Positions 19,076-37,823 of a DNA stretch of 38,053 nucleotides are shown here, one piece after another. The DNA lies in assembly GCA_003242955.1 (NCBI GenBank), contig QJPH01000150.1, positions 1 to 38,053 of the forward strand, given 5' to 3'. Under the pieces are notes generated by a model, which had not been told where the DNA came from, made no database searches, and saw nothing but the letters and a program-made list of their open reading frames with translations. The position numbers and the translations under genes were made by a program. This stretch comes from Candidatus Methylumidiphilus alinenensis. GTDB taxonomy: Bacteria; Pseudomonadota; Gammaproteobacteria; Methylococcales; Methylococcaceae. Every line of letters starts with the position of its first letter. The stretch's first letter is position 1.

Positions 19076-19217
19076 GGTCTTGACCGTATGCGATTAGCCA
19101 GTTCGTTCAAATGTATAAAATCATGCCGCAAACTGTGTGATTTCAATAAAACGGCTTCCGTGCCAAATTCAGTGTTAGGATAACTTAACCCGTGAAGATC
19201 ACCGAACAGGCCAAGAC
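19076..19217 (+). other. Intergenic region with a relic of the tubulin gene leader
   Basis: These 142 bases are AT-rich in the first half (19110-19155). A TATAAA occurs at 19114-19119, but no good -35 box is found at normal spacing. The second half, from about 19160, aligns with the leader and first codons of the tubulin-like gene at 23629. No small gene is supported here. This is one of the few real gaps in the operon. Confidence 0.7.
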
Positions 19218-19260
19218 ATGATCGTTCCCATCCTCACCAGCGGTGTCAGCAGGGCAGTCG
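19160..19260 (+). repeat. Duplicated 5' end of the tubulin-like gene
   Basis: The sequence at 19194-19236 matches tubulin gene positions 23635-23677 with mostly single transitions, including an uninterrupted CGAACAGGCCAAG. The same reading frame is kept: EDHRTGQDMIVPIL here against EDYRTGQGTIIPTL in the tubulin. Upstream, AGTGTTAGGATAACTTA resembles the tubulin leader ACTGTAGGAATACTTA. Similarity fades after about 19260, and similarity to the 15419 vWA gene begins at TGGCGCGGACTCGGCA (19281). The site therefore looks like a duplication junction between tubulin and vWA genes. Confidence 0.8.
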
Positions 19261-21632: not shown

Positions 21633-21710
21633 GGCTTTGTGTTGCTAACAAAGGCTGTGATAGCAAGGCGGATGAAAAAAACAAAAATAATCTAAGAAGT
21701 GAGAATTAAA
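21633..21710 (+). other. Left border of the SIR2 insertion
   Basis: These 78 bases between the vWA stop and the SIR2 start hold a 6-bp inverted repeat TTGCTA/TAGCAA (about 21643-21667) and then an A-rich run. Composition shifts sharply to AT from here. No T-tract follows the hairpin, so it is not a convincing terminator. No promoter boxes with good spacing were found. Confidence 0.4.
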
Positions 21711-23549
21711 ATGACTAAAAATAATCATGAAATCACAGAACTAAGTCTACAAGGTTTTTTGAAGCACATAATGCGGATAGATGACGAGGATACTGAGCAA
21801 CGTTTTTGCTTTATCATAGGTGCCGGAGCATCTGCATCGTCTGATATTCCTATGACCAAGAATTTAGCGGATCAATTATTAATAAGATTGTATGAAGATG
21901 ATCACCATGAAAAAGTAGTTGTTTCCATGGATGAACTGAAGAGGTGGGCGACAAAAAAGAACTTAGAAAAATTTGGGGTGAAGAATTTTAATTATTCTTG
22001 TAGAGAAAGTTTCTATCAAGATTTGTTTAAAACATGTTTTATGAATAAAATGAATATTGGAAAAATATTTATTGAAGAATTAATTCAAGGTAAACAACCA
22101 AATATTGGATATTTAGCTCTTGCTAAGATACTAAGCATGAATAAGCATAATATAGTTATAACAACTAATTTTGACAATCTTGTAGCTGACGCTCTTACCT
22201 TATTCTCTAACACTTACGCTAGAGTGGTTGGTCATGAACATTTAGCATCTTTTGCCATAGCGACTAAGCGACGCCCTTTGATTGCCAAAATACACCGTGA
22301 TTGGTTGTTTGATCCAAACAATGATGATGTACATACCTTGCCAGAAAAGTGGGTTAAACCGCTAACAGATATACTAAATACATATACTCCAATCGTGTTA
22401 GGTTATGCCGGAAATGATGGTGGACTTATGGGGTTTATGGAAAAATTTGAATTTAGAAAAGATCCAAATTATCCAAATAAGCATAATATTTATTGGTGTT
22501 ATCGATATTCTGGTGAAAAGCCAACTAAACGCGATTTACCAAATGAGAGAATCCTTAATCTTATCAAACATTATAATGGAATTCTAGTGCCTCATAAGGA
22601 TTTCGATAAAACAATGCTTGAGCTTTTTATGGCTCTGAATTATAAAATACATGATGACCTAGGCATATCGAAGCCATCACCCGGTAATAATAAATCTTTT
22701 GCTATCCGCGCATTCGTTAGGGAAGAGAAGCTCTTGAAAAAATTAAGAGAACTTTATCCTGATGATCCACCACCAGGACCAGGAGGTGCAGGTGGTGGCG
22801 GATCAGTTGAACCCTCACCAAAATATGCGTTAAGCTTGATAAATCAAGATTGGAGAGATTGGGAATTAAAAGCTAGAAAGGAGCCTGATATTGAAAAGAA
22901 AAAATTGATTTATGAAGAAGGTATAATACTTTTTCCACATAGTTGTGAACTTATAGGAAACTTTGCTCATTTGTTGAAAGCTCATGAGGAATATGATAGA
23001 GCCGAATATCAATATCGAAATGCGCTCAGAATTAATCCAAATGATTCAATAAATACCGGCAATTTGGCATTCTTTTTGGATACCGTTAGAAATAATATAG
23101 AAGAGGCTGAAAAACTCTATAAAAAATCTATCAGGCTTGACCCTAATCGTTCAGAAAACACTACTCGATTTGCTTTTTTTCTGTTTAATCAGAAAAGATA
23201 TAGGCAAGCTTTAGAGAAAACAAAGCATGTATTGAATAATTTACATTGCAATCGTTGGTCTGCCCGATCAGCATTCTGTTCGAGCCTTGCTTTTAATAAA
23301 CTTTTTGAAAACGAAAACCCAGCGTTAGGACGATTAAAAACATTGCTTGAAAATGGATTTGAGCGAGGCGATTCTCTTTTTTATGGAATCCTTGAAATCT
23401 CCTTCCTAAAAACTCCTGAATGGAAGCACGATTTTTATAAGGCATTGGCCTTGTCAATAGAGGAGCAATCTAAATTGAATGAACTAAATGCTTTCCAAGA
23501 ATGGAAAGAAATCAAGCCCATTGATTTGGGTGATTCATGGGAGGAGTAA
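21711..23549 (+). CDS. SIR2-like NADase-type domain with C-terminal TPR repeats
   Basis: I prefer ATG 21711 (612 aa) to the in-frame GTG at 21699, because an AAGTGAG sequence is well spaced before the ATG. Numbered from ATG 21711, residues ~30-300 show the SIR2 hallmarks: IIGAGASASSD near 35-45, ITTNFDNLV near 148-156, a candidate catalytic histidine in AKIHRDW near 192-198, and VLGYAGND near 227-234. A Pro/Gly-rich linker (PPPGPGGAGGGG) leads to TPR-like helices at ~390-510, with repeated LRINPND and IRLDPNR ends. SIR2 domains of this bacterial type commonly deplete NAD in antiphage systems. The gene is strikingly AT-rich against a GC-rich operon and has its own spacers, so it was probably inserted. 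Function as a toxic effector is an inference. Confidence 0.85.
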   Translation: MTKNNHEITELSLQGFLKHIMRIDDEDTEQRFCFIIGAGASASSDIPMTKNLADQLLIRLYEDDHHEKVVVSMDELKRWATKKNLEKFGVKNFNYSCRESFYQDLFKTCFMNKMNIGKIFIEELIQGKQPNIGYLALAKILSMNKHNIVITTNFDNLVADALTLFSNTYARVVGHEHLASFAIATKRRPLIAKIHRDWLFDPNNDDVHTLPEKWVKPLTDILNTYTPIVLGYAGNDGGLMGFMEKFEFRKDPNYPNKHNIYWCYRYSGEKPTKRDLPNERILNLIKHYNGILVPHKDFDKTMLELFMALNYKIHDDLGISKPSPGNNKSFAIRAFVREEKLLKKLRELYPDDPPPGPGGAGGGGSVEPSPKYALSLINQDWRDWELKARKEPDIEKKKLIYEEGIILFPHSCELIGNFAHLLKAHEEYDRAEYQYRNALRINPNDSINTGNLAFFLDTVRNNIEEAEKLYKKSIRLDPNRSENTTRFAFFLFNQKRYRQALEKTKHVLNNLHCNRWSARSAFCSSLAFNKLFENENPALGRLKTLLENGFERGDSLFYGILEISFLKTPEWKHDFYKALALSIEEQSKLNELNAFQEWKEIKPIDLGDSWEE

Positions 23550-23628: not shown

Positions 23629-26600
23629 ATGAGCGAAGACTATCGAACAGGCCAAGGCACGATCATCCCCACCCTCATCATCGGGATAGGCGGGGCGGGT
23701 TCGCGGATGGTGGACCGGATGGCCGGTCGTGCCGCCCGCCTGGTCAATTGGGACAGCCAGTTGCGCCCACTGACCCAGTTTGTGTCCATCGACACCAACG
23801 AGCTGGACCAGCACAAACTGCGCAACATCCCGGCGGGCAACCGGCTGAACATCGCCGCCTTCGACAAGGCGAAGGTGATCGACAATTTTCGCCGCTCCAA
23901 TGACGCGCAAGCCTTGCAATGGCTGGACAAGGGCTACCGCCCAAGGCCCGGTTACAGGCCGGGGGCCGGACAGATCCGGGTCGAGTCCCGGCTGGGTTTC
24001 TTCTACCATTCCCCGGCTATCCGTCAACGCTTGCAGGAGTTGGTCGAAAGCAGTCTGCGCCCCGGCATCACTTGGCGGCAAGCCAGCCCGCCCAAATATA
24101 ATGTCTATGTATTTTGCTCTTTGGCCGGCGGCACCGGCTCGGGCAGTTTCCTGTCGGTGGCTTATTTGGTCGATGCGGTGGTGCGGGAACGGCATTGGCA
24201 GCCGCGGGTGATCGGCAATTTGCTGCTGTCGACGGTAATGCTGGACAAGGTCGGCCCGGAGTTGCATTCCGACATCCACGCCAACACCTACGCCGCATTG
24301 AAGGAGTTGGAACACCTGACCAAGCTGGATTACAAGCAGGTCAAAGACGAGGGCCGCACCGAAGAGAAGTTTGTCTATTGCCGCGACCCCAACACGCAAG
24401 ACATTGCCACGGTCAACACCCGCCCGTTTTTCCTGACCTTCATCTACGACCGCCCACCGCACTTGGGCCTGCCCGATTGCGAGGCGGCGGTCGCGGACGC
24501 GGCCTACCTGCAAATATTCACCCCGCTGATGGACAATCTGGCCGGCGAGTTGGACAACTATGAAAAGAAGCTGGAGGAACTGACTCGCTTCCCCGGCGAA
24601 CTGCGTGACGTGGGCTTGGGCTACACTAAGAATTTCGGCGCATGCGGCGCGGCGGCGATGGTGCTGCCGGGCGAGGACTTGCTGCAATATTGTGTGCTGC
24701 GTTTCGCTGCCCAAGCCTTGCGCCGGCAAATCACCTTCGGCATTGACCCGACCGACGCCTATGACGACCGCACCCGCGCCTTGGCAAGGCTGGCGGTGAA
24801 TTATAGCGACCCGAAGTTTTTGGCGATGGCCGACGAGGGCCGCGAACGGGCGATCAACCAATCGTTTGTCTCCTCGGTGCAGGAATTGGCGCGTCAGGAC
24901 ACCGCCCAGGATTTGGCCCAAGGCTTTTGGTTGCAGTTGGTGGAGGCGGTGGACGAGGGCAAGCAGGCCGGGTTGGATGCCCAAGGGGTGCCGATCCGCA
25001 ACGAATCGCTCGCGAGGCAAGTGGAACGCAAGCTGGAGGAATCGCGGACGGGCTTGCTCAACAAAGTGGCCATCAGGGAAAGGGCGTTTGTGTTCCACCG
25101 GGAAGGGGTCAACCAATATATCGAATTGGTCGCCCGCCTGAGCGAGGATATCCGCGCCGCCAGCGCGATTGTCGGGGAAGGCTTGCAGACTTTGGAAACG
25201 GAGGCGAACGAAGGCGAGGTGGTCGGCAATCTCAGGCTCGACCCCTTGAACGAGCGTTACCTTGCCATCCGTCTGTTGGATTTATGCGAACAGCGCTGGA
25301 TACCCGAAGCGCAGCAACAACTCGACAAGGCCATGGAGCGCGACATCAACAACGCGAAAGTGCGCGAGCGTTTGGAGCGGGAGCTGCCGGCAACCTTGGC
25401 CGACGCGGCCCGTGCGGGCAGTTGGTTTGGCCGGCGTTTTGGCAACGCCGATGAGGCGTTCCTAGCGGCACGGGACGAGGCGCAGGAATACTGCCGAGGC
25501 GTTGCCGCCGCCGCCCGCAAAACCTTCGACGCGCAGATTAGGCTGCGGCAATTGCGCGCCCTGCACGGCTATCTGTTGCGCCGCTCGCGCCAGTATGCCG
25601 GACTGTCCACGCGCATGGACGGGCTGGTGCAGGATTTGGAGCGGGAGGCAGAAAGGCTGCGGCGCGGCGAAACCGAGACATCCCCGTCATTGGCGTTGCG
25701 GGTGGAGGTATTCGAGACGCTGGACGAACCGCGCCAGCGTATCTGGGACCGGGTTTACCGGGCGCTGTTTGTGGACGGCGGACGTTACATCAACACCTTC
25801 GACCGCCAGTCGCTGGCGGAGGCCATCGCCCGCGAGTTGAAGCCGGTGGTTCGCGCCGACGGGCGCATCGTCGAAAAGCCCACCGACCAATTGGTCGCCG
25901 ACTTGCGCCGGGCCTTGTGCGACTTGGGTCGCACACGGCTGAAACCCACGCTGCTGGGCGACGCGGCGGGCCGAGGCTTGGATTTGGCGCGTGGGCTGGA
26001 GCTTGAGGCCGAGTTGATGCTAGGCGCGGCCAAGCCATCCGGCTTGGGCGTGACCGAGGATGAAATCGCCGCCTACCGGGAACAGAAATTCCGCGCACTG
26101 GCGCAATTGGCCGGGGTCTTGGCGCGGGTGAACAGCGCCGAAGCCAACGCCTTGGACGATGGCGTCGTCACCAACCACACGCGCCAGTTGATTTTGGGCG
26201 ACATGGGGGAGTCCGTCGGTAGCCAGCGTTTCACGCAGAAACTGGAGGATGTGCTGTCGGCGGGCGGGCGGCAAGTGAAGAAGGACGTGTGGTACGATCC
26301 GAGGACGATTATCGTCCATGACGTGGCGATGCCGATCCCTTTGTATTATTTCCCCGCCGTGGTCGGCGACATCGAGCAAGCTTACTTGCAGCAAGCGGCC
26401 GACGAACACCGCAGCTACAATCTGCATACCGATTTCAATTGGGAAAAACCACTGCCCAACCTGAACCCGCGCAATTCCGAACTTAGCGTAGACTGGTCGC
26501 TAACCATGCTGACCCGGGGTTTGGTCGCCCGGGCCATTGAATTTAGGAAGGAGGACGGTCTGTTCATCTACACCGATGACAAGGGCGAGGTCCAAAAATT

Positions 26601-26913
26601 GGGTAATAACCTATCCAGCCTGCTTTACCATCTGGCTAACCTTCACGAAACGCTGAAAGAGGCAATGGAAAACCACATCGCCGCCCTACGGCTGGTCCAG
26701 TCCGCAGAGGAACGCAAACAGCGCGACTTGGAACTGGCACAACGTTTCGACGCGCAAGTCAAACAAATGTATTGGCGCGAGGGGCGAGGCGAAATCAGCC
26801 GGGAGGATTTGCTGGACCGCCCCATTTTGCGCGCCTTGATCCGCATTTTGGGCAAGCCTGCAAACGACGGCCCGTCCGCGCCGGCATCAGGACCCCGTTA
26901 CGACTTTGGATGA
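23629..26913 (+). CDS. Divergent tubulin/FtsZ-like GTPase (Tubulin_2/FtsZl1-type), 1094 aa
   Basis: The N-terminus has the tubulin-fold first loop (TLIIGIGGAGSRMVDR, 15-30) and the strand FVSIDTNELD (51-60). The GTP-binding signature loop follows as LAGGTGSGSF (165-174), matching the GGGTGSG of tubulins and FtsZ. At 1094 residues it is about three times the length of FtsZ. The extra ~700 residues are mostly helical and charged, with an apparently long coiled stretch around 600-700, and no membrane segment. Makarova and Koonin (2010) placed such proteins in the FtsZl1 family, associated with vWA and GTPase genes and predicted to remodel membranes. It is probably the cytosolic polymer-forming or scaffold core of this locus. 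It lies 3 bases before the next gene. Whether it polymerises is unknown. Confidence 0.85.
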   Translation: MSEDYRTGQGTIIPTLIIGIGGAGSRMVDRMAGRAARLVNWDSQLRPLTQFVSIDTNELDQHKLRNIPAGNRLNIAAFDKAKVIDNFRRSNDAQALQWLDKGYRPRPGYRPGAGQIRVESRLGFFYHSPAIRQRLQELVESSLRPGITWRQASPPKYNVYVFCSLAGGTGSGSFLSVAYLVDAVVRERHWQPRVIGNLLLSTVMLDKVGPELHSDIHANTYAALKELEHLTKLDYKQVKDEGRTEEKFVYCRDPNTQDIATVNTRPFFLTFIYDRPPHLGLPDCEAAVADAAYLQIFTPLMDNLAGELDNYEKKLEELTRFPGELRDVGLGYTKNFGACGAAAMVLPGEDLLQYCVLRFAAQALRRQITFGIDPTDAYDDRTRALARLAVNYSDPKFLAMADEGRERAINQSFVSSVQELARQDTAQDLAQGFWLQLVEAVDEGKQAGLDAQGVPIRNESLARQVERKLEESRTGLLNKVAIRERAFVFHREGVNQYIELVARLSEDIRAASAIVGEGLQTLETEANEGEVVGNLRLDPLNERYLAIRLLDLCEQRWIPEAQQQLDKAMERDINNAKVRERLERELPATLADAARAGSWFGRRFGNADEAFLAARDEAQEYCRGVAAAARKTFDAQIRLRQLRALHGYLLRRSRQYAGLSTRMDGLVQDLEREAERLRRGETETSPSLALRVEVFETLDEPRQRIWDRVYRALFVDGGRYINTFDRQSLAEAIARELKPVVRADGRIVEKPTDQLVADLRRALCDLGRTRLKPTLLGDAAGRGLDLARGLELEAELMLGAAKPSGLGVTEDEIAAYREQKFRALAQLAGVLARVNSAEANALDDGVVTNHTRQLILGDMGESVGSQRFTQKLEDVLSAGGRQVKKDVWYDPRTIIVHDVAMPIPLYYFPAVVGDIEQAYLQQAADEHRSYNLHTDFNWEKPLPNLNPRNSELSVDWSLTMLTRGLVARAIEFRKEDGLFIYTDDKGEVQKLGNNLSSLLYHLANLHETLKEAMENHIAALRLVQSAEERKQRDLELAQRFDAQVKQMYWREGRGEISREDLLDRPILRALIRILGKPANDGPSAPASGPRYDFG

Positions 26914-26916
26914 GCC

Positions 26917-29430
26917 ATGGCCGAAAAAGCAAACCACCGAGCCACCTTATTGATCGGCTATGGCCGCTTCGGGCTGGAGACGCTACGTCAGTTTCTGACC
27001 AGCACGGCGACGCGCGGGGTGCTGGCCTGGGACACTCCAGCCGGACCCGGCAATGGTGAGCGCCGTCTGCGCGACTTGGGCTTACTGTGGCTGCCCGACC
27101 CGTTTGAAGACAGTGGGCCGGGCGTGGGCGGGATGCCCGCCCTTGACGGCAGCCGCGCCGAGTTGATGCGCGATTTGCACCAACAGATCGAAAACCTTCC
27201 CGACGATGAAACGGGCTTGAAGCAGGCGGTGAAAGCCAGGGCCGAGGCGCTGTTGCGCGCCGACACGCGTGCCAGCAGGGATCGCAACCTGCCATTGGGG
27301 TTGGATGTCGTGGTGCTGGCCCATCCCCATGACCGGCGCACACTGGGCAGGCTGCGCCCCTTGCTGAAAGAGTGCGTGGTCGATGTCCTCTACCGTTCCG
27401 TCACGCAGTTGCATCGCGAGGTGGGTGCAGACGCCCTGAATTTCGTGCAAATTTTGGATTTTGCCAACTACTGGGAGCGATCCGAGTCTGCCAAGGCGCT
27501 GCGAGGGCATTTCAAGGCGTATGTCGAACACTGGCAACGCTGGCGGGAGGAAAAACAACCGACTTTTGGCCGCATTTACCTCGTCGACAGTCACACGCCC
27601 AACGGGGTGCGGGAAGAACGCTTGCGCATCGACGAAATCAGTCTGTTTTTGGAATTTTTGCTGTTTGAAGGCCAGCGCGATAGCGAGTCCATGCAAACCC
27701 TTTATCAAGCACGTCCGGATGACGGGCGCTTGCTGGCGACGTTTGGCATCCGCCTGCTGGAACGCAGTGGCGGACTGCTTAAACGCTTGGCCGCTGCCCG
27801 CTTCGGCATCGGCTGGCTGGAGTATCTGGACGAAGCCCGCACCTGGCCTACGGCAAAAATCCAGCCATTGCGGGATACCTTGGAGGCATGCCAAGGTGTC
27901 GTGTTGGAGGACACGCTAACCGATGGTGGATTGCCGGTCGAATCGCATCAGTCCTTGGCTAGGTTGGCGGACGAATTGGAAGCCCTGCCTGCGGACGATC
28001 CCGCCTGGCCGCAGCAGGTGCGGGCATGCTGCGCGAAGGGGATGCGCCGGCTGGAAAGCGAATTGGCCGACCGGGTGCAACTTCACATCCGCAAAACCCT
28101 GCAAGAAGGGTCGTTCGCCGATTTGGCCAAATCTTTGCGCATTCAAATCGATGCCGCCCTGCATGATGACCGCCAGCCGGCGACTTTGGGCACTGTGGTT
28201 CGCGAGTTGGAATCCGCCCTTGATGCACTCAAGCCAAATTTGGACGGCACTGCCGCCACCGCCCCCTTGCCAGCCGTCGGTCTGGCCAAACTTGAGGAAT
28301 TGCAGGCTGTCCATCAGGATTACCGCCATTTTCTTGAACGGCAATTGGATACGAACGGGGTGCTGAAATGGTGGCCCTTGCTAGCATTTCTGTTTGGTTT
28401 GGGGCTAAGCCATTGGCTCTCCAGTTGGATAGCCGCATGGCTGGCAACCCTTGGCGTTTTTGACTCGGCCACTGCGTCCCATCCATTGAATATGGCCCAC
28501 GAGGCCGCGCAATGGCTGGTCGGCGTTCCCGGCACACCCCTTCCGGGACACCCGTGGGCCTTGGCCCTGGCTTCCTTGCTGCTTGGCGCAGCGATGGTCT
28601 TCATGTTGCATCGTGCCGTCAAACGGCAAGTCCTGCGGGCGCGCTTGTTTTGGACCGACCCCGAGCGTGGCCGGCTGGCCGACGCCCTGCGTGTGCTTGT
28701 GCGCGGCCTGACCGACGACCAAGCGGGCTTGGTGGCGCAGATGCAGAGCGACGCAGCGGCAAACATCCGCGACGAAGCGGGCCGCGAATTGGGCCAATGG
28801 CATCGCAATCTGCGCGAACGCCGCCGCGAGATGGGCTGGCTGCGCAGCCAGCTCCACGATTTTCTGGACATGCATGGACTGGACGCAGACTCGCCAGTCG
28901 AAAACTGGACCCGCATCAGCCGGGACGGAGGCATTCGCCATGCGATGGAGCAATTTGACGATCTGTTGCGCATCAGCCAAACCCGCCCACCTATCCCTGA
29001 ACATTTCCAGTCGATGCAGGCGGAAAAAAAACCCTTTAAAAAATGGGAGGAACGCTATAGCCAAGCGTTCTTGTATCCCTTGCGCTTTATTGACGAACTG
29101 AGCGAAAACTATCAGGAGCCGCTGGAGCAGGAGCTTGCCCAGCCCGGCTCTGGCGCGGAGCAACAAACACGGGCGGATGAATTATGTGCGTTTCTCCGCC
29201 GCCATAGCGGTGATTTCACCACGGCGTTCCGCTGGAAAGCGAGCGTCGGGGTACCGCCGGACAGCGTGTATTGCCTGTTGCCCCCGCTTTGGCTGGGATT
29301 GCCGGGGGTTCGCGACACTTTGACCGGGCAAGCCATCAACGAGGAGCATCGTCTGCCGGGCGAAGACGTTGCCAGGGCCTATTTGTTGCGCCTACAGATC
29401 GGAGTGGAAACAACATGTTTGACACACTAG
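26917..29430 (+). CDS. Membrane protein with a probable degenerate tubulin-like N-terminus
   Basis: The 837-residue product opens with TLLIGYGRFGLETLRQF (10-26), which lines up with TLIIGIGGAGSRMVDRM of the tubulin-like protein. Residues 129-158 (LDVVVLAHPHDRRTLGRLRP...) line up with the tubulin strand and loop 158-186, but the GGTGSG loop is replaced by HPHDRRT. A later IYLVDSHTPNG (220-230) resembles the tubulin's TFIYDRPPHLG. Two transmembrane helices lie at about 485-505 and 546-565, followed by a helical cytosolic tail. I infer a non-GTP-binding tubulin paralog tethered to the membrane, perhaps a partner or cap for the true tubulin encoded 3 bases upstream. The paralogy is by eye and could be wrong. 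The gene end overlaps the next gene by 16 bases. Confidence 0.7.
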   Translation: MAEKANHRATLLIGYGRFGLETLRQFLTSTATRGVLAWDTPAGPGNGERRLRDLGLLWLPDPFEDSGPGVGGMPALDGSRAELMRDLHQQIENLPDDETGLKQAVKARAEALLRADTRASRDRNLPLGLDVVVLAHPHDRRTLGRLRPLLKECVVDVLYRSVTQLHREVGADALNFVQILDFANYWERSESAKALRGHFKAYVEHWQRWREEKQPTFGRIYLVDSHTPNGVREERLRIDEISLFLEFLLFEGQRDSESMQTLYQARPDDGRLLATFGIRLLERSGGLLKRLAAARFGIGWLEYLDEARTWPTAKIQPLRDTLEACQGVVLEDTLTDGGLPVESHQSLARLADELEALPADDPAWPQQVRACCAKGMRRLESELADRVQLHIRKTLQEGSFADLAKSLRIQIDAALHDDRQPATLGTVVRELESALDALKPNLDGTAATAPLPAVGLAKLEELQAVHQDYRHFLERQLDTNGVLKWWPLLAFLFGLGLSHWLSSWIAAWLATLGVFDSATASHPLNMAHEAAQWLVGVPGTPLPGHPWALALASLLLGAAMVFMLHRAVKRQVLRARLFWTDPERGRLADALRVLVRGLTDDQAGLVAQMQSDAAANIRDEAGRELGQWHRNLRERRREMGWLRSQLHDFLDMHGLDADSPVENWTRISRDGGIRHAMEQFDDLLRISQTRPPIPEHFQSMQAEKKPFKKWEERYSQAFLYPLRFIDELSENYQEPLEQELAQPGSGAEQQTRADELCAFLRRHSGDFTTAFRWKASVGVPPDSVYCLLPPLWLGLPGVRDTLTGQAINEEHRLPGEDVARAYLLRLQIGVETTCLTH

Positions 29431-32270
29431 ATTGGAAGCCTTGGGCATTGGTCGGCCTAGGTGCCATCTGGGGTTTCGTATTCGACCGGCTGGCCCGCTT
29501 GCACCGCCCGGAAAGCGATTCGGGCGATTACTGGACCCGCACCGTCGAATGGTGCCTATATCCCTTGGCGACCCTGCTGTTGCTGTCATGGTTATCCCAC
29601 AGCTTCGGTGCTTGGCCGGGCCTTTACTCCGACCAAACGGCGGAGTTTGCGCAAGACGACATTGTGCGTTATGGCTTATTGGCCGGGCCATTCATCTTCT
29701 GGGCCTTGGCCTTGGCGTTTGGGTTTTTTGTCAAGCCGGCCTCCGCAGAATCCGCCCACTGGCTGGCGGGCGGGGTCGGCTTTGCCAATACGCGCCACTG
29801 GCTATGGTGGCAAGTGGCCGTGTTGGCAGTTCTTTTAGGCTTGGGCGCAAGCCCTTTCGATGGCCTGGATACCCCCCCCTATCCGGCAGGGGTCTGGAGT
29901 GTCCTGGCGGTGACGGCGTTGACCTTGGCCGGAATTGCCTGTAGCGGGGGCAGGCCACCCTGGGTCAAAGCAGTGGCGGAGGCTCCCCAGGCGCAGGCCC
30001 TCGCCAAGCTGGAAGATTGGCCCGGCTTGATGGTTGCTGCCAACTTTCAAATCGAAAACCTGGCCAATTGGACAGCCGCCGATGCACCCGCCAGAACTTT
30101 GCCCGACCCATCCGCGCAGGGTTTGGCCGTGCGCTTTGAAGCCATGGGCGCAAGGGGGCTTGCCCCGGAACTGATCGAAGCGGTGACCGCGCTGATGCGG
30201 CGCGAACCGTGCGGCGGCGATGGCTATGGCGCGGTTCGCGTGGTGTTCGGTCCCGACGATTGCGGCCAAACTGAGTCCGTCGGCCTGATGGCCTCGCTGC
30301 TTGACCGGCAAAGCCACACTGTTACCCTGATCATCACGCCGCAAGGCGCGGACTGGCTGGTCGCCCAATTGCAAGGCTGGTTGCCGGAGTCCGTGCAGCG
30401 GATCGTTGCACTTCGCTATGGTGAATTGCCCGAAAACGCGGCTGTGTGGGTGGCGGATGCCGAAATCCTGTCCGACTTCCTATTGCCAAAGCTAAAAGAC
30501 TCCCCCCGCAGTATCGCCAGGGTGGGCTTGGTGGTGTGGTGGCGTCTGCATGATTACAGCGGGGTGATGGCGGCCAATCTATGGGCGATCACCCGCCGTC
30601 TGCACCGCTTGCTGCGCATGCACGGGCGCGAGGATTTGCGCACTTTGGCCTTGTTGTGTCGGGTGGCCGACGATGCGCAAACCGACGATTTCGTGCGCCG
30701 TCTGCTGCCCCACGCCGTGTTGCCGAAAACCTATGTCGAGCCGCGTCGGGCGCAAGCTGTCGCACTGCATGTTGTGCATGCCCGTGACGCCAAAGCAGCC
30801 GCCCGCCAGCATTTGCTGCTGGGAGCCGCCGCCGCGTCCATGGCGGGCAAGTGGCCCACAGCCATCGCACCGCCCGACTTTATCTCCGCTGACGAGTTCG
30901 CCCAGTTTTGCGGACAAACCGTCAATGGCCTGACCATCGGTGGGCAGCTTTGCCCCAGCCCGGATCGTGCGGGTGCCAGGTTGTTGCAGATCCGTCCAGC
31001 CGACCTGCTGGCCTTGCCGGATATGTTGAGCCAAGGCGGGCGTGGCATCGAAGGTTTGGCGATCCACCATGTCGGCATCATGCAGCCGGTCAACCCCTAT
31101 ATGGCCTATAAGCTGAAAGGCCTGACCAAGACCAAGGGCTTCACTGCCTCCCGCCGCCTGATCTGCGCCGAATCCTGTCCGGCAATCATCAAGCGTCATC
31201 TGTTGTTGGGACTGAACGAACTGCCGGAAACCCGTGGCGGTTTGTTGGACAACGCCCTTTGGAAGCAAGATTCGGTCGATGAAACCTTGAACTATCTGGC
31301 GCGTGCGGGAAAACTTAGCAAGGAAGAGGTGCGCTACTTGGATGGCAATAACCGCCTCGCCATCGACTTTGAGTACCGCAGCCGCGACACTCCGGACGAT
31401 CAATACCGTCCGCTCGACACCGTCGGCTTGAAATTGATCAAGGTGCGCGAACCTGCGGGCGGCGGCCAAGGGGGCGGCATCCGCATGCGCCTTGATCCCG
31501 AGCGTTTGTTGATCAAAGCCTATCCGGGACGGGTGTTCATGCATGAAGGCCGCCGCTATCGGATTAGCGACTGGTCTTGCGTGGAGGATGTGGTGCGGAA
31601 AGGCGAGCTTGACTGTCGGCTGGAAAACCGCGCACGGTCTACTTGGCGTTGCAACACCAGCAGGCTATACGGCATCAAGCCGTTGGATGACTCCGCGCCA
31701 GTCGCTATTGGCCGGCAGGGCAGGTTGACGCGGCTGGCGGTCGAATTGTCCTACGCGGAGGAAGTGACCGGGCGCATCGAATGGACCGATGACCCCTGCC
31801 GGGAGTGGATGGACACTATCCAACAAAGCTTTTACATTGAAGCCATCGCCAACGATAAATCGCCGATCAAGACCCAGGCCCAAGTATTGCGCTTGATGGA
31901 TCCCCCCGACGATGCCAGCGCCCTGCCTTCGCTATGCCAAGCCCTGCGCCATGTGCTGCCGACCCATCTTGGCATCGAGGAGGACGCATTGGCGGTGGTT
32001 AGCCTGAACGGCGAGAGCCGCATTGGCGGCGAGGGTCTGTTCGGCATAGCCATCGTCGACCTATACCCCGGTGGCATCGGCTTGATTAAAGCCGTCCACG
32101 ATGACAGTGCCTTTTGGTTGGATGTGCTGCAATCAACCAGCGAGTGGCTGGAAAACTGCCGGGCAGAAGATTTGCGGCAACACCCGATTGCGCTCGCTGC
32201 GGGTGCGGACCAACCGCCGCAGCCACAGGCGGCCCTTAAAGTGTTACGGCAAGTCCTGACAACGGCTTGA
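29415..32270 (+). CDS. Membrane-anchored inactive DUF1998/MrfA-type DEAH helicase homolog
   Basis: I start at ATG 29415 (951 aa), preceded by GGAG at 29400-29403; the frame stays open upstream only as a shadow of the previous gene. Four or five transmembrane helices occupy residues ~8-176. The rest follows DUF1998-family helicases in order. GPDDCGQTE (279-287) sits where Walker A should be, VTLIITPQGADWLVAQLQ (303-320) is a motif Ia strand, and VWVADAEILSDFLLP (344-358) follows. WWRLHDYSGVMAANLWAITR (375-394) replaces DEAHxYxGVFGxHVxxVxR. HLLLGLNELP (595-604), AYPGRVFMHEGRRYRI (702-717) and DLYPGGIGL (882-890) are C-terminal family marks. Neither the lysine of motif I nor the DE of motif II is kept, so ATP hydrolysis is unlikely. 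The role is probably structural. A terminator-like hairpin overlaps its stop. Confidence 0.75.
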   Translation: MFDTLDWKPWALVGLGAIWGFVFDRLARLHRPESDSGDYWTRTVEWCLYPLATLLLLSWLSHSFGAWPGLYSDQTAEFAQDDIVRYGLLAGPFIFWALALAFGFFVKPASAESAHWLAGGVGFANTRHWLWWQVAVLAVLLGLGASPFDGLDTPPYPAGVWSVLAVTALTLAGIACSGGRPPWVKAVAEAPQAQALAKLEDWPGLMVAANFQIENLANWTAADAPARTLPDPSAQGLAVRFEAMGARGLAPELIEAVTALMRREPCGGDGYGAVRVVFGPDDCGQTESVGLMASLLDRQSHTVTLIITPQGADWLVAQLQGWLPESVQRIVALRYGELPENAAVWVADAEILSDFLLPKLKDSPRSIARVGLVVWWRLHDYSGVMAANLWAITRRLHRLLRMHGREDLRTLALLCRVADDAQTDDFVRRLLPHAVLPKTYVEPRRAQAVALHVVHARDAKAAARQHLLLGAAAASMAGKWPTAIAPPDFISADEFAQFCGQTVNGLTIGGQLCPSPDRAGARLLQIRPADLLALPDMLSQGGRGIEGLAIHHVGIMQPVNPYMAYKLKGLTKTKGFTASRRLICAESCPAIIKRHLLLGLNELPETRGGLLDNALWKQDSVDETLNYLARAGKLSKEEVRYLDGNNRLAIDFEYRSRDTPDDQYRPLDTVGLKLIKVREPAGGGQGGGIRMRLDPERLLIKAYPGRVFMHEGRRYRISDWSCVEDVVRKGELDCRLENRARSTWRCNTSRLYGIKPLDDSAPVAIGRQGRLTRLAVELSYAEEVTGRIEWTDDPCREWMDTIQQSFYIEAIANDKSPIKTQAQVLRLMDPPDDASALPSLCQALRHVLPTHLGIEEDALAVVSLNGESRIGGEGLFGIAIVDLYPGGIGLIKAVHDDSAFWLDVLQSTSEWLENCRAEDLRQHPIALAAGADQPPQPQAALKVLRQVLTTA

Positions 32271-32333: not shown

Positions 32334-34631
32334 ATGTTTGATAAAGACAACCGCCAAAAATTGGACAGAATGGGTTCGCGCTTGAAGGTCTGGGTAGAGT
32401 CCTTCCAAGTGACGCGAGAATTCAGCCGGCAATGCAAGCGTTTGCATGACGAGATGGAAGCCGAAGGGCAACGGCCATTCTGGCATATCGTCAGTGGCGA
32501 AACCCTGCAATCCTTGGCCCAACGCTACGCGAACCTTGAAAAAATTGCGGCTGAACTCCCGTCCGTCGTTGAACAGGCCAAACAACTGGATGCCGAACTG
32601 GACGCAATGCTGGTGCTGCTGAAAAAGGAACAGGATGGTGTCAGCCAATGCGTCTTGCAACTCTGCGACCAGTGGCGTGGCGAACTCGCCGTCGCCATGA
32701 ATTGCGCACGGGACGCGGATATTATCGCGGCAAGGCAGAAATTACCCGCCATTGAGGTGGGCTTGCACCTGTATGCCGACGCATTGCGGCTTTTCCAGCA
32801 GATTGACGACATGTTGATCACCATGAGGCATAGCAACGAAACTGCAGGGTTGGAAAGTGCCCTGCTGACACAGCGCGAAGTGGTGGCCATGGGCGGATTG
32901 ACCCGCGAGGGAATCGAATACATCAAAAGCCTCTACAAGCCACTGGATGAACTGAGCAGGATGCCCCCGCCTCCGCAAATCAGCGAGGTGACCAGCACCT
33001 TGGGCGAAATTCGCAGTTGGGGCAGGGCGTTGAGCATAACCAGTGAAAAATACCGGGATTTATATCTGCGCTTGCAGCAACTGCAAACCAGCTGGATGCG
33101 GCGCGACCCCAACGAGCCTGACCAACTATTGCAGGATGCGAGAATCTTGCTTAACGAACATATCCAACAAGGACACCAAGAACGGGAGGCCAATCTGAGC
33201 CGATTGCAGAATTCGCTAAGCGAGTTGACCCTTGCCTGCGGCCCACAGCAGGAGATTGAAACCCGTCTGCAATCTCTGAAGCATACCCGTTTGGAATATT
33301 CCCACGACTTTGTCGATTGGATGGAAAGGTACACAAACGCCATCGAAGAATTCAAAGCGATCGCCAGTACGCACGAACTGGCCTTGGAAAAACGCCTGGA
33401 AGAGCGGTGCGCCAAATGGAGATTGGGATTACAAAACTTGCAAGCCATGCCGCTGTCCCAGTCGCTCAAGCCCCAGGCTGGAAGACTGCAGCAACGCTTC
33501 GACAAGTTGAACGACAGCAAAGGTGGGCAAGAACTGCTGGTATCCTTGCGCGAGGCCAACGACTGCCTGGCGGAACTGGAACAACTCAATCGACAGGCGG
33601 AAGCAGACCGGGCAGGCTTCGACCTGGCCCGTCGCGGCCTGCGCGAAGGCAATGCCGCTTTGCAGGCCAGCGCCGCCACTGCCGAAATTGACTGCGACGA
33701 TTTACAGGTCGACATCGACGCCTTGGGCGAAAACGCCAGCAATCCAGACCTCGACGAAGTGCTGGCCGAAGCGCAGAGCTTGCAACGGCGGTTGGAATCC
33801 ATCCGCCAAAGGTTTATCAGCGACTGCCAAGCGGCGTGGCATCAAATCCATGCGGAAGCGAAAAGCCTGCGCGATGAGTTGCTGCAGGCCGGCTTTGCCG
33901 AGCTTGCCGCCTCCCCGGCGGTCGATGCCATGCCAACCGATGCCGCCGAATGCGCCAGCCGACTGGTCGATCTGCGCACCTTGCGAAAAGGCTTGGGAGA
34001 GGCCGTCGAACAAGCCGTTGCCAAGTTGCAGGAAAATTGCGCCAAGGCGCAAACCAGGCTGTCGGGTTTGCTGGCCGGCGAAACGCTGGAAGACGCTTAC
34101 CGTGAGCGCGCCCAAGCCCTTCTTGGCCAACTGCAACAAGGCATCACGGCTAAAACAGGTCCGGATAGCCTGCGGGAATTGAGCTGGAAATTCAACTCCT
34201 GTGGGCAATTTTGGCGCGATTTTCTGGAAGAAGAGGAAAAGTTGCGCAAACGCCTGGAGGGATTGAAGGATAAATTGAATCTCTTCGGCCAAGAACGCCT
34301 ATTACCTTATTGCGACAGGGAACACCTCGACAAAGCCACCGATTGGATTCGCGGACTGCCCCAAAGCCCGAATCGAACCCATGCCCGGCAATTGCACGAT
34401 GCTGAGCGGTTGGTGCATACCATCGAAAAGCAAGCCCGCCGCAGGGTGGCGGAAAAGGTCAGCCAGCAAGCCTTGGAACTCGCACAAAAAAAGCACCTTC
34501 ACCCCAACACGGACGAGATGGCTGCGCTGTTGGCCGAAATCGACGGCATCGGCCACGAAAAACATCTGCCTTGGGAACTACGCAACCGACTGGATGCGGC
34601 CATAACCACCACGAGGAGTCAACATGGCTAA
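32334..34631 (+). CDS. Large cytosolic coiled-coil protein
   Basis: The 765-residue product is almost entirely helical with heptad-like stretches rich in Leu, Glu, Gln, Arg and Lys. It has no signal peptide, membrane segment or catalytic motif. Low-complexity composition makes any family match unreliable, so I leave it unnamed. Its length and shape suggest a spectrin-like or SMC-like rod that could bridge components or bundle tubulin filaments. It begins 63 bases after the pseudo-helicase gene, behind a terminator-like hairpin, with AGGA upstream of its ATG. Its last eight bases overlap the next gene, whose GAGGAG ribosome-binding site lies within its final codons, implying coupled translation. 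Confidence 0.8.
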   Translation: MFDKDNRQKLDRMGSRLKVWVESFQVTREFSRQCKRLHDEMEAEGQRPFWHIVSGETLQSLAQRYANLEKIAAELPSVVEQAKQLDAELDAMLVLLKKEQDGVSQCVLQLCDQWRGELAVAMNCARDADIIAARQKLPAIEVGLHLYADALRLFQQIDDMLITMRHSNETAGLESALLTQREVVAMGGLTREGIEYIKSLYKPLDELSRMPPPPQISEVTSTLGEIRSWGRALSITSEKYRDLYLRLQQLQTSWMRRDPNEPDQLLQDARILLNEHIQQGHQEREANLSRLQNSLSELTLACGPQQEIETRLQSLKHTRLEYSHDFVDWMERYTNAIEEFKAIASTHELALEKRLEERCAKWRLGLQNLQAMPLSQSLKPQAGRLQQRFDKLNDSKGGQELLVSLREANDCLAELEQLNRQAEADRAGFDLARRGLREGNAALQASAATAEIDCDDLQVDIDALGENASNPDLDEVLAEAQSLQRRLESIRQRFISDCQAAWHQIHAEAKSLRDELLQAGFAELAASPAVDAMPTDAAECASRLVDLRTLRKGLGEAVEQAVAKLQENCAKAQTRLSGLLAGETLEDAYRERAQALLGQLQQGITAKTGPDSLRELSWKFNSCGQFWRDFLEEEEKLRKRLEGLKDKLNLFGQERLLPYCDREHLDKATDWIRGLPQSPNRTHARQLHDAERLVHTIEKQARRRVAEKVSQQALELAQKKHLHPNTDEMAALLAEIDGIGHEKHLPWELRNRLDAAITTTRSQHG

Positions 34632-35448
34632 ACACGATCCTTGGCAATGGCCTGCGCTGCAAGGCATGCCCGCAACACTTCCCGCCAAACTCGAATACCA
34701 GCGCGGAGTGTTTGGCAAAGTACACGGGGTTCGCTCCGATTTCCGCTGGATCGCCCGCAGCGCGGATTTTAAACGTGGCAACGAATTGGAGGAGGCGCTT
34801 TATCTTGGCAGTCAAGACAAGCCCTGCGCCCTGCCGTTCTGGAGGTGTCTAGCGGCAGTCCATTATGCCGGTTTTGCCTATCCAAGCCGGGCGAAGGATG
34901 CCGCGCAGCGCGGCGGCTTCCTGGAAAAGCAAATTGCCGACTTAGGCAGATCTGTCCTACCGGCCGCGCTGTCCGCATTGTTGTCGCTGCGGATGGTGTG
35001 GCAATGGAACGACAGCATCTGGTGGGACCGGCAAGAGAGCGTAAATTGGTCGCAACCGGATAGCGTACTGCCCATTGCGGCGGCGGACTGCCCGGGACTT
35101 GACTTGGAAGGATTGGGGGATCGGCTTGGCAAAGCCATTGCAGAAGGCTTGGCTGGTTTGATGGAATTGGGTAAAGAAAGCTTGGCCTATTTCTACGCGA
35201 GCCTGTTGGCCGGGGAAACGCCAGCCATCCTCCCAAGCACCAAGCCTCTCGGCCCGGAAGCCTTGGCGGCTCTGCTCCTGCCTTTGCCACGCCCCCTTGC
35301 CGACCGGCTGTCTTTGCTGGGTTGGGTTCCCTCCAATCTCTACGAGCTGAAAGACTTAGGCAAATGTTGGGACGGTGCCGTCCTCGCGGTTGGCCATAAC
35401 GCCCCGGAATTATCTTCCAAAGCCAAAGAGTATCAGGCTGAAGCCGAA
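34624..35448 (+). repeat. Duplicated GAP1-like domain, copy 1 (pairs with 36300-37124)
   Basis: The first 275 codons align without indels with 36300-37124 (offset 1676). Identity is moderate over the first ~100 codons and almost complete from about 35045 to 35390. The uneven identity looks like a gene-conversion tract within an older tandem duplication. Confidence 0.9.
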
Positions 35449-36303
35449 CGGATGGCTGATGCCATCTATGCTGCGGATCCCGACCGTCTCCGGTTGCCGT
35501 CCCCAGTGTTGCCCGCGCCCGCGTCAACCGACCCCCAAGATGACTCCTTGCAACTGGCGATATGGGGTCCGTCCTCGGCAGGCAAGACGGTATTGATGGC
35601 CCAGCTTTTTCTGGAGAACGCCGAGAAAGAAAGCGATTGGCTGATCGTCCCCAACGAAACTTCCTTACAGTTTATCCAAAACATGCGCCAATCCCGCGGT
35701 GGAAATGGTTTCCCGCCCGCCACGCCAGAGAACTTCGTCTCTCAATTGCGTTACCAGTTCTTCAACCGGACCACCGGAATCAGTGCCTCGTTGCTGGTGG
35801 AGGAACGCCCCGGGCGGGATTACGAAAAGCAAAAGCAGGATATTCGGCAACGCATGAAGTCGGCGGATGGCCTCGTGTTGCTGATCGACCCCTACCGTGA
35901 GTCGCGGAAGCTGGACGAGGAACTTGCCAACTTGTTCACCCACATGCAAGTGGACAGACAAGGAATTCACCCGCAAGATACCCGGCCCATCGCCGTGTGC
36001 CTGTCCAAGGCTGATGATTTAATCAACAACCCGGCGGATTTGCGCCATGCCATGGAAAGACCGGATGATTTCGTCAAAACCCGCGACCGCTGGGGCTTGG
36101 TTCCCTTGTTTGGGCGCTATTGCGCCAACTACCGGTTTTTTCCCGTGTCCGCCGTCGGCGTCGGTTTGCGCCATGGCATTGCCGAAAGCAATACCTTCTA
36201 TGATGAAAACCTAAAACTGCGCGTCAAGGGCAAGAGCCAATCTTTCAATTTGATGGCCCCCTTTATTTGGCTGATCGACCAATTGCGGAGGGCGCGGATA
36301 TGA
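34624..36303 (+). CDS. GAP1-like N-terminal domain fused to a GTPase domain
   Basis: Residues 1-275 form a domain beginning EYQRGVFGKVHGVRSDFRWI, with YPSRAKDAAQRGGFLEKQIADLG near 86-108. This resembles the N-terminal domain of GTPase-associated protein families. After a Pro-rich linker (~285-305) comes a P-loop domain: Walker A GPSSAGKT (315-322), a switch-like EERPGRDYE (393-401) replacing DxxG, the strand GLVLLIDPYRES (416-427), and CLSKADDL (459-466) as an N/TKxD equivalent. That order fits a TRAFAC-type GTPase more than an ATPase. No membrane segment is seen. This is probably the 'distinct GTPase' that accompanies FtsZl1 tubulins, and the locus has a second one at 2610. The stop overlaps the next start (ATGA). 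The N-terminal half is repeated in that gene. Confidence 0.8.
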   Translation: MAKHDPWQWPALQGMPATLPAKLEYQRGVFGKVHGVRSDFRWIARSADFKRGNELEEALYLGSQDKPCALPFWRCLAAVHYAGFAYPSRAKDAAQRGGFLEKQIADLGRSVLPAALSALLSLRMVWQWNDSIWWDRQESVNWSQPDSVLPIAAADCPGLDLEGLGDRLGKAIAEGLAGLMELGKESLAYFYASLLAGETPAILPSTKPLGPEALAALLLPLPRPLADRLSLLGWVPSNLYELKDLGKCWDGAVLAVGHNAPELSSKAKEYQAEAERMADAIYAADPDRLRLPSPVLPAPASTDPQDDSLQLAIWGPSSAGKTVLMAQLFLENAEKESDWLIVPNETSLQFIQNMRQSRGGNGFPPATPENFVSQLRYQFFNRTTGISASLLVEERPGRDYEKQKQDIRQRMKSADGLVLLIDPYRESRKLDEELANLFTHMQVDRQGIHPQDTRPIAVCLSKADDLINNPADLRHAMERPDDFVKTRDRWGLVPLFGRYCANYRFFPVSAVGVGLRHGIAESNTFYDENLKLRVKGKSQSFNLMAPFIWLIDQLRRARI

Positions 36304-37124
36304 ACAATGGCGTATGGCGGCAGTGGCCCGCACTGCAAGACATGCCCGCAACACTTCCCGCCGAGCTTGAATACCAGCGCGGAGTGTTTGGCAAAGTCCA
36401 CAAGGCACGCTCCGATTTCCGCTGGATTGCCCGCAGCCAAGGGTTTCATCGCGGCGAAGAATTGGAAGAAACGCTTTATCTTGGTAGCCAAGACAAGCCA
36501 TGCCCTCTGGCATTCTGGCGATGCTTAAAGACCGATTATTTTGCCGGTGTGGCCTATCCCAGTCGGGCGCAGGATGCCGCGCAACGCGGCGGCTTCCTAG
36601 AAAAGCAAATTGCCGACTTGGGCAGATCTGGCCTACCGGCCGCGCTGTCCGCATTGTTGTCGCTGCGGGTGGTGTGGCAATGGAACGACAGCATCTGGTG
36701 GGACCGGCAAGAGGGTGGAAATTGGTCGCAATCGGATAGCGTACTGCCCATTGCGGCGGCGGACTGCCCGGGACTTGACTTGGAAGGATTGGAGGATCGG
36801 CTTGGCAAAGCCATTGCAGAAGGCTTGGCTGGTTTGATGGAATTGGGTAAAGAAAGCTTGGCCTATTTCTACGCGAGCCTGTTGGCCGGGGAAACGCCAG
36901 CCATCCTCCCAAGCACCAAGCCTCTCGGCCCGGAAGCCTTGGCGGCGCTGCTCCTGCCTTTGCCACGCCCCCTTGCCGACCGGCTGTCTTTGCTGGGTTG
37001 GGTTCCCTCCAATCTCTACGAGCTGAAAGACTTAGGCAAATGTTGGGACGGTGCTGTCCTCTCGGTTGACCAAAACGCCCCGGAATTATCTGCCAAGGCC
37101 AAAGAGTTTCAGGCTGAAGCCGAA
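36300..37124 (+). repeat. Duplicated GAP1-like domain, copy 2 (pairs with 34624-35448)
   Basis: This is the second copy of the 825-bp segment described at 34624-35448. Similarity ends at a shared GAAGCCGAA (to 37124), after which one gene continues into a GTPase domain and the other into an unrelated C-terminus. Confidence 0.9.
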
Positions 37125-37823
37125 AAATTAACCCGCGCCCTGTTGGAAAATAGGCCGGAAGATCTTGCCCCAGCTAAGCCCTGCTACCAGGCAAGCATTG
37201 CCGAGCCGGGCGTGCAGAACTCCAAACCGCCACTGGATGGCGAGGAAAGCATACAAGCCGAAAAGACGGCAGTCTCCGAAGCGATATTAGCACCTAGGAA
37301 TGGGGCGGCACTCGAAACCACAGCCCTCGGCGAGCAGGAATTGGAGGGTGCGACGAAAGGCGGGCCAATACCGTCACACACCAAAAATTCATTCCCCGAA
37401 TCCACCAGTCACTCCCGGCAATGCATCTGGTCTGGCCGTTACGATGCAGTCTGCGAACTCGATATGGGAGTCGGCGACACAGATAGTTTGACTCACCTAC
37501 TGCTTGAGTTTTCCCGGCGAGCCAGACGGCGCGTGTTAAACCGCGATGTCTTGTCCAATGGCTTGGAAAAGAACTATAAACTCGGATCAGAGCCAGCTAA
37601 ACGGTTGGCTATGCAGATTAGGGAGTGGATAAGCCAGATGGAAAATCCGCCCGAACTGGCGGATTCGGCGCAATGGGCATTTAAGCTTGCCCAACTGCGA
37701 GTGGTGGCCCGAATGTTGGACACTCCAAGCACGCCAGACTTCACTGACCCGGAAGAGCAACGCATCCATCGGGCGTTTGCCGGCAGAGATTGTCGGCGCT
37801 CCAACAATGCGGGATGGCAATAA
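36300..37823 (+). CDS. GAP1-like domain with a replaced C-terminus (GTPase lost)
   Basis: I start at ATG 36300, which overlaps the previous stop (507 aa); the frame is open 33 bases upstream but inside the previous gene. Residues 1-275 repeat the N-terminal domain of the preceding protein. There is no P-loop afterwards. Instead comes a low-complexity, probably disordered linker (~276-375) and a small helical domain (~376-507) opening with CIWSGRYDAVCELDMGVGDT and containing LLLEFSRRARRRVLNRDVL. The C-terminal part matches nothing I recognise. The protein could compete with, or dimerise with, the GTPase-bearing copy. It is the last gene of the cluster in this window, followed by a non-coding inverted-repeat element. 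Confidence 0.8.
   Translation: MNNGVWRQWPALQDMPATLPAELEYQRGVFGKVHKARSDFRWIARSQGFHRGEELEETLYLGSQDKPCPLAFWRCLKTDYFAGVAYPSRAQDAAQRGGFLEKQIADLGRSGLPAALSALLSLRVVWQWNDSIWWDRQEGGNWSQSDSVLPIAAADCPGLDLEGLEDRLGKAIAEGLAGLMELGKESLAYFYASLLAGETPAILPSTKPLGPEALAALLLPLPRPLADRLSLLGWVPSNLYELKDLGKCWDGAVLSVDQNAPELSAKAKEFQAEAEKLTRALLENRPEDLAPAKPCYQASIAEPGVQNSKPPLDGEESIQAEKTAVSEAILAPRNGAALETTALGEQELEGATKGGPIPSHTKNSFPESTSHSRQCIWSGRYDAVCELDMGVGDTDSLTHLLLEFSRRARRRVLNRDVLSNGLEKNYKLGSEPAKRLAMQIREWISQMENPPELADSAQWAFKLAQLRVVARMLDTPSTPDFTDPEEQRIHRAFAGRDCRRSNNAGWQ

Follow-up and report, generated by a model that had tools for sequence, protein, structure and literature searches.

The window analyzed here is an entire 38,053-bp contig (QJPH01000150.1; G000:C27) of Candidatus Methylumidiphilus alinenensis, from which sixteen genes were taken, all on the + strand. 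Its thirteenth gene, g13 (29415..32270, + strand), encodes a 951-aa protein whose soluble part, by profile comparison, is homologous to the YprA/MrfA (DUF1998) helicases across most of its length. Judged from its sequence, the protein appears to be a MrfA-type helicase stripped of its ATP-binding motifs, with a predicted membrane domain at its N-terminus. The homology, the loss of the motifs, purifying selection on the gene and its place in a syntenic operon with genes for a Tubulin_2 protein, a GTPase and von Willebrand factor A (vWA) proteins were all found here. A sequence-only reading of this DNA had proposed a membrane-anchored pseudo-helicase in a tubulin-vWA locus and knew of no earlier description; likewise, we found no description of a membrane-anchored inactivated YprA helicase, or of one in a tubulin locus, in the literature searched (mainly open-access, main texts).

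Homology of the g13 soluble part to MrfA-type helicases

Matches of the single g13 sequence were weak and concordant. The Pfam MZB (MrfA Zn-binding) model matched residues 840-916 with an E-value of 3.2e-4 and 21.8 bits, under its 24.2-bit cut-off; in a six-frame genome search g13 scored 26.4 bits, above the cut-off, and the homolog of a congener also exceeded the cut-off (E 3.6e-5). The TIGR03817 DEAH helicase model matched residues 342-412 (E 7.4e-5, 21.2 bits, far under its equivalog cut-off), and the sole phmmer match in the PDB up to an E-value of 10 was YprA/MrfA (E 0.011). When a profile of the three g13 family members was used against the PDB, the two best matches were 9tu7 (E 0.0015), which we take to be a YprA family member, and 6znp (MrfA, E 0.0031), followed by a third at 1.5.

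For a profile-profile comparison, MrfA-type helicases were gathered from genomes and plasmids and 27 of them were aligned (A5); 12 of the 50 plasmid matches listed, with 76 records matching, entered this alignment, and A5 and A6 exclude the MrfA near-duplicates L062, L067 and L068, L078 (a second entry for the L064 gene) and two fragments, L079 and L081. Against the 27 helicases, hhalign matched the g13 soluble part (residues 180-951, 772 aa) over 607 columns with a probability of 97.9 and a P-value of 3.7e-13. The alignment spans columns 94-759 of 760. The reversed profile gave a probability of 0.1, the best of 50 column shuffles 2.1, the best of 50 shuffles of 20-column blocks 57.5, and none of six other window proteins exceeded 0.6. 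With g13 alone, without its homologs, the probability was 96.3 (P 1.9e-9), and against six MrfA sequences it was 91.8, with 200 of its own shuffles reaching at most 28.8. The profile match together with the shuffle controls refutes a chance resemblance. By profile and fold, g13 belongs with YprA/MrfA in its RecA1, RecA2 and DUF1998 canopy regions, RecA2 being the weakest part.

Structure prediction, proposed earlier as a check, also returned MrfA first, both in a model that is independent of MrfA (E 0.004) and in one that is not. For the AlphaFold2 model built from the three family members only, the top two Foldseek matches were the MrfA structures 6znp (E 4.2e-3, 133 columns) and 6znq (E 1.3e-2, 96 columns, root-mean-square deviation (rmsd) 2.2 Å), and DrmAB ranked 15th (E 5.5). 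The better predicted local distance difference test (pLDDT) scores at residues 830-950 suggest that, in this model, the match falls in the C-terminal domain. In a second model, built from 18 rows, the top four of 1,808 matches were MrfA structures (E 3e-16 to 1e-11, template modelling scores of 0.44-0.47 by query) and other superfamily 2 (SF2) helicases started at E 2e-10; because 15 of the rows were MrfA, this fold match is not independent, and the rmsd of 11-15 Å in these matches makes the domain arrangement unreliable.

Helicase motifs lost and kept

The positions of the helicase motifs in g13 were read by alignment to MrfA, with the assignments of motifs III-V uncertain and dependent on that alignment. 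Motif I (Walker A) survives as a relic, GPDDCGQT (residues 279-286; 30249..30272, + strand), that aligns to MrfA TPTASGKT, and motif II (DExH) as the relic VWWRLH (residues 374-379; 30534..30551, + strand), which aligns to VIDExH. The lysine of motif I is replaced by glutamine, and the aspartate and glutamate of motif II by tryptophan and arginine, in all three g13 sequences, in which PDDCGQ and WWRL.DYSGVMAANLWAITRRLHR are identical. The sequence-only reading had recognized the loss of these two motifs and had understated how far it goes. Motif Ia reads IITPQG where MrfA has FPTKAL and motif VI reads DMLSQGGR where MrfA has QRLGRAGR; CSATI of motif III corresponds to ALLCR, VFARSR of motif IV to IAPPDF, and motif V is absent, these three being the uncertain assignments. 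The four-cysteine CxC..GCPxC zinc cluster of DUF1998 is absent as well, so that the DUF1998/MZB-like domain (residues 840-916; 31932..32162, + strand), assigned from Pfam MZB and the MrfA alignment, has lost its zinc cysteines. YPGRVF, from residue 703, and DLYPGG, from residue 882, are in register with MrfA motifs, like the relics of motifs I and II.

Compared with MrfA/YprA (PDB 6znp, 6znq and 6zns), g13 is collinear over most of its soluble part, down to the DUF1998/MZB-like domain at the C-terminus, but it lacks the SF2 motifs and the zinc cysteines, has a predicted N-terminal membrane domain and lies in a tubulin operon. By the known mechanism such a protein would be unable to run as an ATP-driven DNA motor. 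SF2 helicases grip DNA via motifs Ia, IV and V; since these are also gone from g13, simple binding along a DNA track is weakened as a function.

The reading frame and the membrane part

The g13 ORF (open reading frame) is intact, running unbroken from the ATG at 29415 to the stop codon at 32268-32270, and its 5' end overlaps the 3' end of g12 (26917-29430) by 16 bp. The 772-aa soluble part is preceded by an N-terminal membrane part (residues 1-179; 29415..29951, + strand) with about five predicted transmembrane helices, which were judged by hydropathy alone (Kyte-Doolittle (KD) mean, with 1.6 as the pass mark) and are also helical in the low-confidence model. In the window protein, three of the five hydrophobic segments pass and the first two, which are weak, reach only ~1.3. 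In the homolog from genome G029 all five segments have a KD mean of at least 1.64. The positively charged loops, read by eye, suggest that the N-terminus lies outside and the soluble part in the cytoplasm.

Distribution and selection

Among 38 genomes of the family, three hold a full-length g13, and all three belong to a single genus, of which seven genomes were searched. Besides the window protein, the homologs lie on contigs G027:C82 and G029:C416 of two Methylococcaceae metagenome-assembled genomes, where the gene order is the same and the same motifs are lost. The sequence-only reading had proposed checking whether homologs beside Tubulin_2 genes lack motifs I and II; three of three full-length proteins do, within one genus only. 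No further full-length homolog was found in overlapping samples of 398 (phylum), 311 (order) and 321 (class) genomes, nor in the plasmids or viral contigs searched. A species-level genome scan with two peptides of the membrane part returned the same two homologs, a scan that relatives without that part could escape. Three short extra matches were obtained at E ≤ 0.001: 58 residues in G183 (phylum sample), of whose locus the first 300 bases were read, and two in the order sample, one over 75 positions of the membrane part in G612 and one in G555 (L023), whose sequence marks it as the C-terminal portion of an ordinary helicase of the DUF1998 type. MZB matched g13 alone in G027 and G029 and one more protein in G000 (L051), presumably DrmB-like, indicating that no ordinary MrfA accompanies g13 in these three genomes. 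No MrfA relative was confirmed in viral contigs, and neither g12 nor Tubulin_2 was found there.

The window g13 and its G029 homolog are 50% identical, and their most conserved 24-aa stretch (95.8%) is the former motif II region, residues 375-398 (30537..30608, + strand). Between G027 and G029 the ratio of non-synonymous to synonymous substitution rates (dN/dS) of g13 was 0.137 (55 synonymous and 24 non-synonymous differences) and that of its C-terminal part 0.042; five other genes, compared in stop-to-stop frames, gave 0.035-0.387. The low dN/dS and the conservation of the former motif II argue that g13 is not a decaying pseudogene, and the sequence conservation suggests that the dead motif II site has been reused and is under a new, constrained use.

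The operon around g13

Upstream of g13, the Tubulin_2 (FtsZ-like) gene g11 (23629..26913, + strand; Pfam PF13809, E 1.6e-44) carries the GGTGSG loop and is followed by g12 (26917..29430, + strand), an 837-aa protein with no Pfam family, at least one transmembrane helix and conserved counterparts in the congeners (48%). Downstream lie g14 (32334..34631, + strand), helical and, judged from its sequence, probably coiled-coil (32-33% with congeners); g15 (34624..36303, + strand), a DO-GTPase2-like GTPase with an intact P-loop (PF19993, E 2.6e-8, above cut-off) whose N-terminal part resembles g16; and g16 (36267..37823, + strand), without a Pfam family above cut-off and likewise conserved in the congeners (36%). 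Further upstream are four vWA genes. The conserved g6 (10891..13020, + strand) and g7 (13017..15422, + strand) have the metal ion-dependent adhesion site (MIDAS), with vWA models under cut-off at E 0.0011; g8 (15239..19075 as the longest ORF, + strand, its start, by eye, probably at ~15420) and its relative g9 (19218..21632, + strand) match VWA_2 just under cut-off at E 1.4e-5 and 1.1e-5, respectively. The vWA homologs in G027 (L017) carry hydrophobic N- or C-terminal segments. Between the vWA genes and g11 lies g10 (21699..23549, + strand), whose SIR2-TPR product carries GAGAS and TTNFD motifs and is a possible effector; g10 has no counterpart in the G027 locus and may for this reason be swappable.

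Genes g6, g7, g8/g9, g11, g12, g13, g14, g15 and g16 of the window have counterparts in the congeners, and g1-g5 and g10 had no match in the congener loci as read, the G027 locus being spread over two contigs and the G029 locus read from Tubulin_2 onward only. Motifs are intact in the neighbors of g13: DxSxS (MIDAS) in g6-g9, GGTGSG in g11, the P-loop in g15 and also in g2, and the SIR2 motifs in g10. As g6-g9, g11 and g15 keep their motifs, there is no general decay of the locus, and g13 is the dead one among the operon proteins of recognizable family.

None of 14 other Tubulin_2 loci, with 15-40 kb read per locus, gave a g13 homolog at E ≤ 0.1. These loci comprise three second copies in the same genomes, six from the phylum sample and five from plasmids, with a few of the Tubulin_2 matches weak or partial; one weak match under cut-off, G215, was left out. 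The two loci with the gene order of the window hold g13, and these 14 do not. Three of the five plasmid records with Tubulin_2, all from Thermaceae (L045, L047 and L048), have a vWA gene, Tubulin_2, one further gene (a product of ~680 aa) and then BrxL; the two Azospirillum records have no BrxL.

Possible roles of g13

Because the whole MrfA-like body appears to be held at the membrane and is co-conserved with the tubulin, a switch GTPase and the vWA proteins, we favor, with modest confidence, a role of g13 as a non-catalytic, membrane-tethered scaffold in a Tubulin_2/vWA/DO-GTPase machine. We infer its topology, the loss of ATPase activity, the scaffold role and all of its contacts as follows. 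About five N-terminal helices would anchor the protein in the inner membrane, with its RecA-like domains and DUF1998 canopy region in the cytoplasm, and this body would form a fixed docking platform at which Tubulin_2, g12, g14 and the DO-GTPase are kept close to the membrane. Switching would be supplied by the GTPases and the tubulin, and the vWA proteins may act on the other side of the membrane. In favor of a non-catalytic role, inactive helicase or NTPase domains of BREX PglZ and of the iSTAND proteins are proposed to serve in recognition (PMC12839542); the dead SF2-derived modules kept in the defence proteins PglZ and DndH are single Swi2/Snf2-type P-loop domains, in contrast to the whole MrfA-like protein with an anchor in g13.

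Several points weigh against this scaffold. First, the independent structure model is poor (pLDDT 34.6) and none of its 59 matches reached E ≤ 0.001, and the 18-row model, with its MrfA-dependent match, is of moderate quality (pLDDT 57.9, predicted template modelling score 0.56). Second, the transmembrane helices are hydropathy-based predictions, and the best segment of the soluble part of the window protein (KD 1.5) scores above the two weak helices. Third, two of the three family proteins are 97.5% alike and full-length homologs are confined to one genus. At last, the absence of g13 from the 14 other loci indicates that a Tubulin_2 machine can do without it.

It is possible, though we would not expect it, that g13 is part of an envelope or membrane-remodelling machine that does not involve nucleic acids, of the kind put forward by Makarova & Koonin (2010, PMC2875224) for FtsZl1 loci with vWA, GTPase and OmpA proteins. 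The sequence-only reading had adopted this frame, and the window does resemble the operons described in the main text of that paper in its Tubulin_2, its MIDAS vWA proteins, its divergent P-loop GTPase and its membrane proteins g12 and g13, with hydrophobic termini on the G027 vWA homologs; the conflict systems of Kaur et al. (2020, PMC7159879), as set out in their main text, fit equally. The word "helicase" is absent from the main text of Makarova & Koonin, and no OmpA-family match was obtained in Pfam scans of the 16 window proteins; the OmpA-family proteins of FtsZl1 systems are given there as present in several genomes and not universal. The Tubulin_2 modules near BrxL on the three Thermaceae plasmids point instead to defence.

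The rival of highest interest, which we hold to be doubtful, is a nucleic-acid sensor stationed at the membrane in an anti-phage system, in which the dead helicase would bind incoming DNA or another phage product and trigger the GTPase/tubulin switch and an effector such as the SIR2 protein. Kaur et al. (PMC7159879) predict in their main text that DO-GTPase/tubulin/vWA sets form conflict systems, and the window shares with the GAP1-N2 systems described there a DO-GTPase2-like GTPase, a tubulin, vWA proteins and a variable effector-like gene, here the SIR2-TPR gene that lies inside the operon and is unmatched in the G027 locus. Pfam gave no match to the GAP1 family among the window proteins, with g3 a possible candidate by eye, and the tubulin theme of that text belongs to firmicutes and actinobacteria; where its main text names helicases (four places), they are effectors in other systems, of the SWI2/SNF2, type-I-R-M-like and superfamily-I kinds. 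YprA helicases themselves serve the DISARM, Druantia, ARMADA and Dpd defence systems according to the main text of Bell et al. (2025, PMC12458937), where the Dpd members, like g13, are without the DUF1998 cysteine cluster. In the same main text "tubulin", "transmembrane" and "vWA" are absent, "inactivated" refers to nuclease domains and a GTPase homolog, and changes in Walker A and B of ArmA and ArmC abolish ARMADA protection, so that a dead member could not act likewise. DISARM, Druantia and ARMADA are recognized by an active YprA helicase together with a methylase or nuclease in the operon; at the g13 locus the helicase motifs are gone, and Pfam scans of the 16 window proteins gave no methylase or nuclease families. 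PADLOC, run on 9 of the 16 proteins, returned two marginal mad8 matches (E ~0.02) besides the SIR2 gene. Net charge was set aside as uninformative: that of g13 is -5, and the 27 MrfA sequences, ranging from -67 to +19, cover the same range. The vWA-Tubulin_2 modules one gene from BrxL, on all three Thermaceae plasmids, and the ARMADA-like gene set after BrxL on one of them speak for a sensor; the loss of motifs Ia, IV and V and of the zinc cluster, and the absence of g13 from the 14 other Tubulin_2 loci, speak against it.

In a more specific and, to us, unlikely form of the sensor, the dead YprA helicase in the inner membrane would detect entering phage DNA, and its capture of that DNA, in place of translocation, would control tubulin assembly and free an effector such as the SIR2 protein. 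If true, this membrane DNA detector would be a prokaryotic counterpart of the non-catalytic helicase-fold sensors.

It is very improbable that g13 has kept ATPase or helicase activity through unorthodox motifs, and we rejected this reading: the glycine-containing loop PDDCGQ remains and the motif regions are strongly conserved, but the lysine of motif I and the aspartate and glutamate of motif II are replaced and motifs III, V and VI are lost in all three sequences. A decaying pseudogene or a chance resemblance, to which the weakness of every single-sequence match might have pointed, is refuted by the frame open in three genomes, the dN/dS and the shuffle-controlled P-value, and both were rejected.

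The gene g13 joins the YprA helicases, which power several anti-phage systems, and the Tubulin_2/vWA operons in one protein and illustrates that a helicase body can persist without its ATP motifs. These operons have been predicted machines since 2010, with no tested function found in the literature searched, and g13 offers a testable handle on that function: nucleic-acid binding by g13 would make an immune operon probable, and binding to partners alone would mark a structural platform.

Further observations on the window and on other Tubulin_2 loci

The window g15 has its DO-GTPase fused to the N-terminal domain common to g16; in the congeners (L013:11082-13423) the GTPase and the g16-like domain are separate genes. 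The close relatives g8 and g9 (15239-21632), with an inner part repeated in g8, both match one single gene in G027. The N-terminus of g12 is glycine-rich and Rossmann-like, ATLLIGYGRFGLETL, and a test of g12 as a second tubulin gave no support (match probability 0.6). A likeness of the N-terminus of g3 (4062-8294, 1410 aa) to GAP1, seen by eye only, was unsupported by Pfam, which gave g3 no family above cut-off; g5 has neither a Pfam match nor any of the motifs noted in its neighbors.

The second Tubulin_2 loci of the three genomes (L015, L016 and L044) have other gene content, without the pseudo-helicase, and the copy in G000 is a weak match of 27.3 bits. An Azospirillum protein encoded close to Tubulin_2 (L046:23431-26787), with hydrophobic helices at its N-terminus, showed no detectable homology to g13 (match probability 1.2). 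One Thermaceae plasmid has an insertion sequence transposase ahead of BrxL. On the Allomeiothermus plasmid, BrxL is followed by genes for a DrmD/BrxHII-like helicase, a DrmMI-like methylase and a DruE-like helicase, the last of which has no MZB by Pfam and matches A5 in the helicase core only; this gene set resembles ARMADA and may reflect a link between Tubulin_2 and ARMADA.

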